Origin: Terriglobales bacterium
GTDB taxonomy: Bacteria; Acidobacteriota; Terriglobia; Terriglobales; Acidobacteriaceae
Assembly (NCBI GenBank): GCA_035651995.1
Contig: DASRER010000030.1
Coordinates: forward strand, 1-56,592
Length of the DNA stretch: 56,592 bases
Reading direction: 5' to 3'
This document shows positions 24,552-26,329 of this stretch, in pieces (position 1 is the first letter of the stretch; every line of letters begins with the position of its first letter). Both the position numbers and the translations under genes were made by a program. Under the pieces are notes generated by a model. It was not told the DNA's origin and searched no databases. It worked only from the letters and a program-made list of their open reading frames with translations.

Positions 24552-24634
24552 CCAGTGGATAGCGCATCGTGAGTAGCAAACCTGCCCGAGGGGACGTCAC
24601 TATCCACTCTCCGCTATCCGCTCTCCACTGTCTG
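24552..24634. repeat. Heptad repeat (CTATCCA family) overlapping the end of the EamA gene
   Basis: From 24600, 7-base units CTATCCA, CTCTCCG and variants follow five times to 24634. CAGTGGATAG at 24553-24562 is the inverted arm. The EamA stop codon at 24614-24616 lies inside the repeat, so its last residues (QTVESG) are repeat-encoded. Confidence 0.7.
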
Positions 24635-25564
24635 AATGATGATCGTCCCCGCCAGCACCAGCGCAACGCCCAGCGCCTGGCTCCAGAACAAGCCTTCAGC
24701 GAGGAACGCCGCGGTCAGCAAAATCGCGAACACGGGCTCAAGACAGCTGGTGACCACGGCGCGCGTCGCGTCGAGCTCCGCCAGCCCTGAGAAGTAGAGG
24801 GCGTATCCGATCAGGATGGAGACCAGCGCGAACAGCGCCATGAACTCCCATTGCGCGGCGGAGTAGTGTGCCGCCGCGATCTTCCACGGCGGGTTCACCA
24901 CCGCCCAGAACGCCGACGCTCCGAGCATGGCGTAGGTGAAAACCGCCCAGCGGTCGTAGCGCTCGAGCAGGCCGCGTCCCATCACGTTGTAGAAGCCGAA
25001 GGCGACGGCCGCGCCCAGGCCGGCAGCCACCCCCGCCGGAACCAGCCGGATTTCAGCGCGGCCCAACCCGATGGCGAGCGCGCATCCGGCGACGGCGAGC
25101 AGGACCGCGCTCACCCGTTGCGCAGTGGCGCGCTGCAGTCCGCGCGCCACCATCCACGAGAGCACGAGAATCGGGCACAGGTATTGCAACGTGATGGCGG
25201 TAGCGACCGTGGTCCTTTGCACGGCGAGGTAATAGAAGTAGTTGGAGGCTGCAATTCCCGCCGTTCCGATCAGAAGGCAGCGGACAAAGTCAGCAGCCGG
25301 CATGCGAAACGCCGCGCGCCCGCGGACGAGCAGCAGCGCCGGCAGCAGCACCAGCAGCGAGAGGGTGACGCGGGTCTGCGAGAGGATGAGCGGGCCCAAC
25401 GGCTGGCCGCCGGTTGCACTGGCGAGCAGCTTGCCGGTAAAGACAGCGCGCGCCATCGCCGCCGACGCAGCCCAGCACAACGCCGCGCCGGCTATATAGA
25501 AGTATCCGCGAATGGGATGTGCGTTGATTGCGATTGGATATTCCCAGTCAGGAAAGCGCTTCAA
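24614..25564 (-). CDS. EamA/DMT-family transporter
   Basis: 316 residues with ten predicted helices in two EamA halves. Examples are GYFYIAGAALCWAASAAMARAVF, LSLLVLLPALLL, AGIAASNYFYYLAVQRTTVATAITLQY in the first half and ALFALVSILIGYALYFSGLAELDATRAVVTSCLEPVFAILL in the second, the last being the repeated family signature. Such proteins export metabolites or amino acids; the substrate is not known. Its ATG lies 3 bases after the glutaredoxin stop, so the two are almost certainly one transcription and translation unit. The last codons are within a heptad repeat. Confidence 0.88.
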   Translation of the reverse strand: MKRFPDWEYPIAINAHPIRGYFYIAGAALCWAASAAMARAVFTGKLLASATGGQPLGPLILSQTRVTLSLLVLLPALLLVRGRAAFRMPAADFVRCLLIGTAGIAASNYFYYLAVQRTTVATAITLQYLCPILVLSWMVARGLQRATAQRVSAVLLAVAGCALAIGLGRAEIRLVPAGVAAGLGAAVAFGFYNVMGRGLLERYDRWAVFTYAMLGASAFWAVVNPPWKIAAAHYSAAQWEFMALFALVSILIGYALYFSGLAELDATRAVVTSCLEPVFAILLTAAFLAEGLFWSQALGVALVLAGTIIIQTVESG

Positions 25565-25567
25565 AGC

Positions 25568-25819
25568 TTAATGCGATTCGAGCGCGTTCAGCAGTTCTTC
25601 GAGGCGCCGGGGATCGAAGCCGATCACCACTTCTTCGCCCACCACCACCGTGGGCGTGGTGCGGCTGTGGTAGCGGCGCACCATGTCCCGCAGCGCGCCG
25701 CGGTCGGCGGAAACGTCGCGCTCCTCAAAGGCCACTCCTCTCGCCGAGAGGAGTTCCCGCATCACCAGGCACGGCGGTCAGCCGGGCGTCAGGAAAAGCT
25801 GCACGCGCAGTTGCGGCAT
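25568..25819 (-). CDS. Glutaredoxin-like selenoprotein (in-frame UGA as Sec14)
   Basis: Read from the ATG at 25819, 84 codons include one in-frame TGA (25778-25780) at position 14. If read as selenocysteine (U), the result is an 83-residue glutaredoxin: strand RVQLFL, motif TPG-U-PPC, helix LVMRELLSARG, FEERDVSAD, the cis-Pro segment TTPTVVVGE and GFDPRRLEELL. The TGA stands exactly where the first redox Cys of the CxxC is expected. Just downstream is a perfect hairpin (25734-25754) whose loop starts 32 nt after the UGA. U-x-x-C glutaredoxin-like selenoproteins are a known bacterial class. Most gene callers would begin at 25765 and lose the active site. The gene sits 3 bases before EamA and about 100 bases after OsmC. 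No selA/B/C/D is in the window. The alternative is a nonsense mutation of a Cys gene. Confidence 0.85.
25734..25754 (-). promoter_or_regulatory. Candidate bacterial SECIS hairpin
   Basis: On the minus strand ACTCCTCTC, loop GGC, GAGAGGAGT form a perfect 9-bp stem. After a small internal loop, GG/CC pairing may extend it. The apical loop begins 32 nt after the UGA and starts with G-G. Bacterial SECIS elements are expected within the coding region about 16-37 nt after UGA with G in the first two loop positions. It would bind SelB. Confidence 0.75.
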
Positions 25820-25921: not shown

Positions 25922-26329
25922 CTATGAATCCAGCTCGATGGTGTAACTGATCGCGGTCCCTTTCTTCAGCATTGCGGACACCGAGCAATACTTCCCCTCC
26001 GACAGCCGTACCGCATCCTCCACCGCTTTGCGCGCCACCTTGCCGGAAACTCTGTAGACCAGCTTGATCGTGGTGAATACCTTGGGCGGCGTCTCGGCGC
26101 GCTGCGCTTCGGCGCGGACCTCCACACGCGTGAACGGCTCGCGTTTCTTCCGGAGAATGGAAACGACGTCCGTCGCCGTGCAGCCGCACAGCGCGATCAG
26201 CACCATTTCCATCGGCCCGGGAGCAGTGTTGCGTTCGCGGTCCGAATCCATCGGAACGGTGTGATTGCTTGTGCCGGTCGCGACGAAGCGCTCGCCATCA
26301 ACCCAGATTGCGCAAGCCGTGGTGTGCAT
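25922..26329 (-). CDS. OsmC-family peroxidase-like protein
   Basis: 135 residues. OsmC/Ohr proteins reduce organic hydroperoxides with two Cys; YhfA-like members are less well understood. GPMEMVLIALCGCTATDVVSIL holds the first Cys region (CGC) and SEGKYCSVSAML the second Cys, at the expected places in the OsmC fold. The start is at 26329, and the ATG lies 3 bases after the stop of the CDF transporter gene (26333), so the two form a unit, followed by the glutaredoxin and EamA genes in the same direction. The run of redox and transport genes could be one stress-related operon. Confidence 0.88.
   Translation of the reverse strand: MHTTACAIWVDGERFVATGTSNHTVPMDSDRERNTAPGPMEMVLIALCGCTATDVVSILRKKREPFTRVEVRAEAQRAETPPKVFTTIKLVYRVSGKVARKAVEDAVRLSEGKYCSVSAMLKKGTAISYTIELDS

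Follow-up and report, generated by a model that had tools for sequence, protein, structure and literature searches.

A likely selenocysteine-encoding UGA at the active site of a small redoxin from Acidobacteriaceae

Is the TGA codon inside a short glutaredoxin-like frame of a Terriglobales bacterium a stop codon, a lesion, or a codon for selenocysteine (Sec)? The frame lies on the minus strand of contig DASRER010000030.1, and the window analyzed here is the whole stretch of 56,592 nucleotides. An earlier note on this DNA had suggested that a frame starting from an ATG is interrupted only by this TGA, that the TGA falls on the first cysteine of a CxxC active site, and that the gene is likely to encode a selenoprotein. 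The gene and the codon in question are the following.

25568..25819, minus strand: predicted selenoprotein redoxin gene; 83 residues, active site U-P-P-C, stop codon TAA at 25570-25568; Pfam PF00462
25778..25780, minus strand: in-frame TGA at residue 14, read as selenocysteine; TGA in 38 and a Cys codon in 23 comparable relatives

The coordinates were borne out by the sequence: the frame opens with the ATG at 25819, ends with the TAA, and has the TGA at 25780-25778 as its sole internal stop. Once the UGA is decoded as a residue, the product matches the Pfam Glutaredoxin model PF00462 across the full model (residues 6-65, E 4e-14), with 53 bits against a gathering score of 22.9, which assigns it to the Glutaredoxin fold. 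The TGA does occupy the position of the first Cys of the CxxC active site, giving U-P-P-C. A restart at an in-frame GTG/ATG codon 3′ of the UGA was considered and rejected; as had been foreseen, its product is without the first active-site position, which is conserved as TGA or Cys. All models stayed below their cut-offs in an NCBIfam scan of the redoxin, and an Rfam scan of the window gave nothing at gathering scores.

Is the TGA kept in related bacteria? In a sample of 150 genomes from the same taxonomic family, the redoxin protein found a match in 85 at E<=0.001. A set of 66 loci was drawn from these matches, comprising all listed rows at E<=9e-8 apart from G014:C107 (34% identity, 3 TGA), which was left out. 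The codon at the active-site position is TGA in 38 loci and TGC or TGT in 23, while the other loci are three putative TGA paralogues and two fragments at contig ends; part of the reason why no third residue occurs at the site is that the script sought [UC]xxC. The two fragments were dropped from the counts, as G106_L093 has no motif and G050_L099 has its motif outside the match. Thus, an in-frame UGA aligned with the Cys of a homologue, a criterion for bacterial selenoproteins, is seen here with 38 TGA forms and 23 Cys forms. Random stops in relatives followed by decay of the frame, which the earlier note had named as evidence against its own proposal, did not occur; the frame is kept with either a TGA or a Cys codon. 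Three of the Cys forms have a CLSC site, and the one in G095 has a TAG further along the frame.

The gene neighborhood was also compared. Two genes flank the redoxin gene in the window.

25922..26329, minus strand: upstream OsmC-like gene; PF02566, E 1.5e-17
24614..25564, minus strand: downstream EamA-type transporter gene; PF00892, E 4.2e-29; TTG start according to the ORF tool

The listed start of the EamA-type gene is 3 bases past the redoxin stop codon. A same-strand EamA gene lies downstream in 37 of the 38 TGA loci and a same-strand OsmC gene upstream in 32, a count lowered by upstream flanks of <700 bases in three loci. Since OsmC is adjacent in only three and EamA in only seven of the 23 Cys forms, some of the Cys forms are not strict orthologues. 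The three TGA loci set aside by motif (L096, L097, and L100, in genomes G085, G014, and G109) form a second TGA redoxin group with a GU[ML]FC site; they look like paralogues, and none of the three neighbor genes was found alongside them.

If the UGA is decoded as Sec, a SECIS element may be expected behind it, and a candidate was found.

25734..25754, minus strand: SECIS-like hairpin; 9-bp stem, GGC loop at 25745-25743, 32 nt after the UGA

The stem starts 23 nt 3′ of the UGA, and the loop follows the pattern GG[A/C/G]. The hairpin agrees with the constraints on bacterial SECIS elements as given in a figure legend of PMC13188914. As a single sequence, its folding energy is unremarkable (z -0.92, with 31 of 200 shuffles folding equally well). 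The chance rate of such hairpins behind the TGAs of the window is 259 of 1384 for a 6-bp rule and 20 of 1384 for a 9-bp rule. The case for this predicted hairpin depends on comparison and not on a single fold. In the alignment of the 38 TGA forms, 92.8% of the cells of the 8-pair stem are paired, with double-sided changes at five of the eight pairs; none of 500 shuffles equaled the values of the TGA forms on four of five measures, and 22 of 500 did so on the fifth. The stem pairing of the 23 Cys forms is 47.3%, which is not above shuffled or slid controls. The complete set of six inner pairs is present in 35 of 38 TGA forms and in none of the 23 Cys forms, and the 6-bp rule is passed somewhere by 37 of the former and six of the latter. 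One stem position has an AGA codon in 27 of 38 TGA forms and in no Cys form. Elsewhere, AGA makes up five of 167 Arg codons in the same TGA-form genes and one of 307 in ten genes of the window. On this codon comparison, the AGA excess at the stem position is the visible codon cost of the hairpin.

These results bear on the possibility that a TGC/TGT Cys codon has turned into TGA in a dead gene or by sequencing error. A single base change suffices for this, and the branch leading to the window sequence is long in the tree (0.81). However, such an explanation is strongly contradicted by the 38 relatives that have TGA at the same codon with the remaining frame kept, and compensatory changes in the hairpin are confined to the TGA forms. 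A pseudogene or an error is thus very improbable.

Does the organism have the Sec machinery? The source genome of the window is 3.66 Mb in size and 99.35% complete. The complete set that the earlier note had proposed to look for is present: selA (552.4 bits), selB (353.3 bits), and selD (367.3 bits) are above their cut-offs, and a tRNA-Sec was found with 69.5 bits and a tca anticodon as determined by ARAGORN. Two other matches of the tRNA-Sec model at or above the gathering score are tRNA-Ser according to ARAGORN. The selD gene has an in-frame TGA of its own.

G000 contig C25, 28861-29790, minus strand: selD (L101), TGA form; hairpin predicted after the UGA

The apex of the predicted selD hairpin, read by eye, is C-GGC-G as in the redoxin gene and lies 20 nt from the UGA. 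A search for the Sec-type formate dehydrogenase (TIGR01591) gave five matched stretches in the genome, every one of them below the cut-off and none with an in-frame TGA.

In the family sample, selA is above cut-off in 91 of 150 genomes. The selB gene was found in all 38 TGA genomes versus nine of the 23 Cys genomes, and selA in 37 versus 11 (the selA and selB lists were copied by hand, and the selB list comprises 84 of the 85 genomes tallied above cut-off). At E<=1e-10, 33 of the 38 TGA genomes yielded a tRNA-Sec, and so did 10 of the 11 Cys genomes with selA, compared with none of the 12 without selA; no tRNA-Sec was seen at this strict threshold in the other five TGA genomes. Fisher's test gave p values of 8e-6 for selA and 4e-8 for selB with relatedness ignored, and these overstate the association, which amounts to far fewer than 61 independent observations because all 12 Cys genomes without selA sit in one starred clade of 14 Cys forms. 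In this sample, the TGA form is confined to Sec-decoding genomes, while Cys forms occur both with and without the machinery; in one Cys-form clade, most genomes appear to have lost the machinery. The suggestion that the organism uses Sec stands as far as the machinery genes go, with the refinement that many other members of the family are Sec users too. A TGA redoxin was found in G119 with selB and tRNA-Sec but with no selA match; since selB and tRNA-Sec are present there, the missing selA is likely an assembly gap. In more than 10 genomes, the SelA match breaks in two around model position 136-140 while the reading frame stays open (e.g., G048:C7:74861-76285 and G104:C1:19508-20953), as if an insert of some 20-35 residues were carried there.

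Another explanation for a frame that stays open beyond a UGA is general read-through or reassignment of UGA in the organism, without selenium. This is even less probable than a dead gene. The ordinary genes are listed under table 11, selA, selB, selD, and tRNA-Sec are present, and in several relatives, G038, G074, and G118 among them, this very gene ends with a TGA stop codon. Moreover, reassignment leaves the conserved, TGA-linked hairpin unexplained.

Given the exchange between UGA and Cys codons, the machinery, the covariation of the hairpin, and the linkage of the hairpin to the UGA, the gene very probably encodes a selenoprotein, a U-P-P-C redoxin with Sec at the UGA; this reading, which agrees with that of the earlier note, derives from sequence comparison. 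A ribosome reaching the UGA would be met by SelB with Sec-tRNA(Sec), recruited via the downstream hairpin, and selenocysteine would be placed as the first residue of the active site. To judge from the fold and the relatives, the product may act as a small selenol/thiol-disulfide redoxin, whose selenolate would attack a substrate disulfide and whose Cys17 would resolve the bond.

How does this redoxin relate to known selenoproteins? As the earlier note had stated, bacterial Grx-like selenoproteins with a UxxC motif are known; Grx selenoproteins with PF00462 and UxxC are listed in PMC13188914 (WP_010943784.1) and in tables of PMC1794560 and PMC1088965. Compared by description only, the redoxin shares with them the fold family, Sec as the first residue of the active site, the UxxC motif, and a SECIS-like hairpin 3′ of the UGA, while it differs in having UPPC, in being found mostly in one taxonomic family, and in its doubtful use of glutathione. 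Among its best model matches are the YruB-family model TIGR02196 (E 6.2e-20), with 71.5 bits against a cut-off of 88.55, and the Uxx-star model NF041212 (E 5.6e-14), with 52.1 bits against 66. When nine relatives (the three paralogues together with four TGA and two Cys forms) were cut down to 72 residues, they reached at most 82.1 bits for TIGR02196 and 63.7 bits for NF041212, although trimming can lower scores. Since these cut-offs are unreached, the redoxin is not filed under either model. A study by Kim et al. in 2011 reportedly deals with a selenoprotein glutaredoxin. By its fold and motif, I place the predicted selenoprotein with the known UxxC Grx-like selenoproteins as a new branch. In a literature search, no title or abstract opening named a Sec redoxin of the UPPC group. 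For Occallatibacter riparius, a species of Acidobacteriota, the deep-Sep paper (PMC12013277) counts three known selenoprotein genes, which are unnamed where they are mentioned. One of them may belong to the UPPC redoxin group.

In a phylum sample of 297 genomes (family share not given), seven matched it at E<=1e-12, six of them in the same family including the window's own genome; the one match outside the family has 36% identity and a frame without a stop. Among 17 loci of other phyla with 32-45% identity, all but one have Cys at the site. The exception is L005 on a contig of Anaerolineales UBA6131, whose match (1744-1965) shows a TGA in frame at the active-site position, giving a Sec-like UGDC. 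The redoxin tree is poorly resolved (77 columns, 19 of 58 inner branches starred); the Sec/Cys label needs six changes on it, of which at least three are forced by starred branches.

Is the redoxin a glutaredoxin in function? Among solved structures, the closest in sequence is BC3987 of Bacillus cereus (3zij/3zit; E 1.3e-16, residues 5-78). Next come chains that bear the name Glutaredoxin (7c10, E 1.5e-11; 7c12, E 4e-10), while NrdH and glutaredoxin-3 chains matched more weakly (E about 1e-6 or worse). BC3987 is a Cys protein, unlike the UGA-encoded redoxin, and its CPPC aligns with the UPPC. In PMC3720550, its kinship with the peroxiredoxin-reducing thioredoxins is described as closer than that with the NrdH-redoxins. 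No match to the glutathione synthetase model TIGR01380, the one GSH gene family searched, was found in the source genome, and the bacillithiol protein BshC was found there with 430.8 bits. Since these two results are joined by a nearest structure that is thioredoxin-like with CPPC, a glutathione cycle seems doubtful for this redoxin. Thus, the name glutaredoxin given in the earlier note holds for the fold and is questionable for glutathione dependence. The same selenoprotein could still be a classical glutathione-dependent glutaredoxin. The full-model match to PF00462 and the second-best solved matches speak for it, Grxs including Sec forms are described as GSH users in the review PMC13188914, and GSH could be imported. 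Against this stand the unmatched TIGR01380 in a nearly complete genome, the presence of BshC, and BC3987 as the top solved match, which make glutathione dependence unlikely. As for the glutathione-independent alternative, it is conjectured that thioredoxin reductase or a bacillithiol system would re-reduce the redoxin, which is the better guess for the reductant.

The OsmC type comprises thiol peroxidases and their relatives. Thus, the adjacent OsmC-like protein is a candidate partner, and it is a further conjecture that the redoxin serves it. Taken as a whole, OsmC, UPPC redoxin, and EamA may tentatively be regarded as a clade-specific selenoredoxin module, in which thioredoxin reductase or bacillithiol would drive a glutathione-independent Sec redoxin that reduces its OsmC-like neighbor; this full picture, though possible, is less likely than not.

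The locus adds a well-supported group to the UxxC redoxin selenoproteins, with members in 38 of the 150 genomes sampled from a single family. Because the NCBIfam cut-offs are unreached, automatic annotation may overlook or shorten its members. The paired Sec and Cys forms come from genomes that have the machinery and from others that lack it, and they provide a natural test bed for the retention or loss of Sec. If the module reading is true, this redoxin and the Sec-containing SelD would be a main reason why these bacteria retain the Sec machinery.
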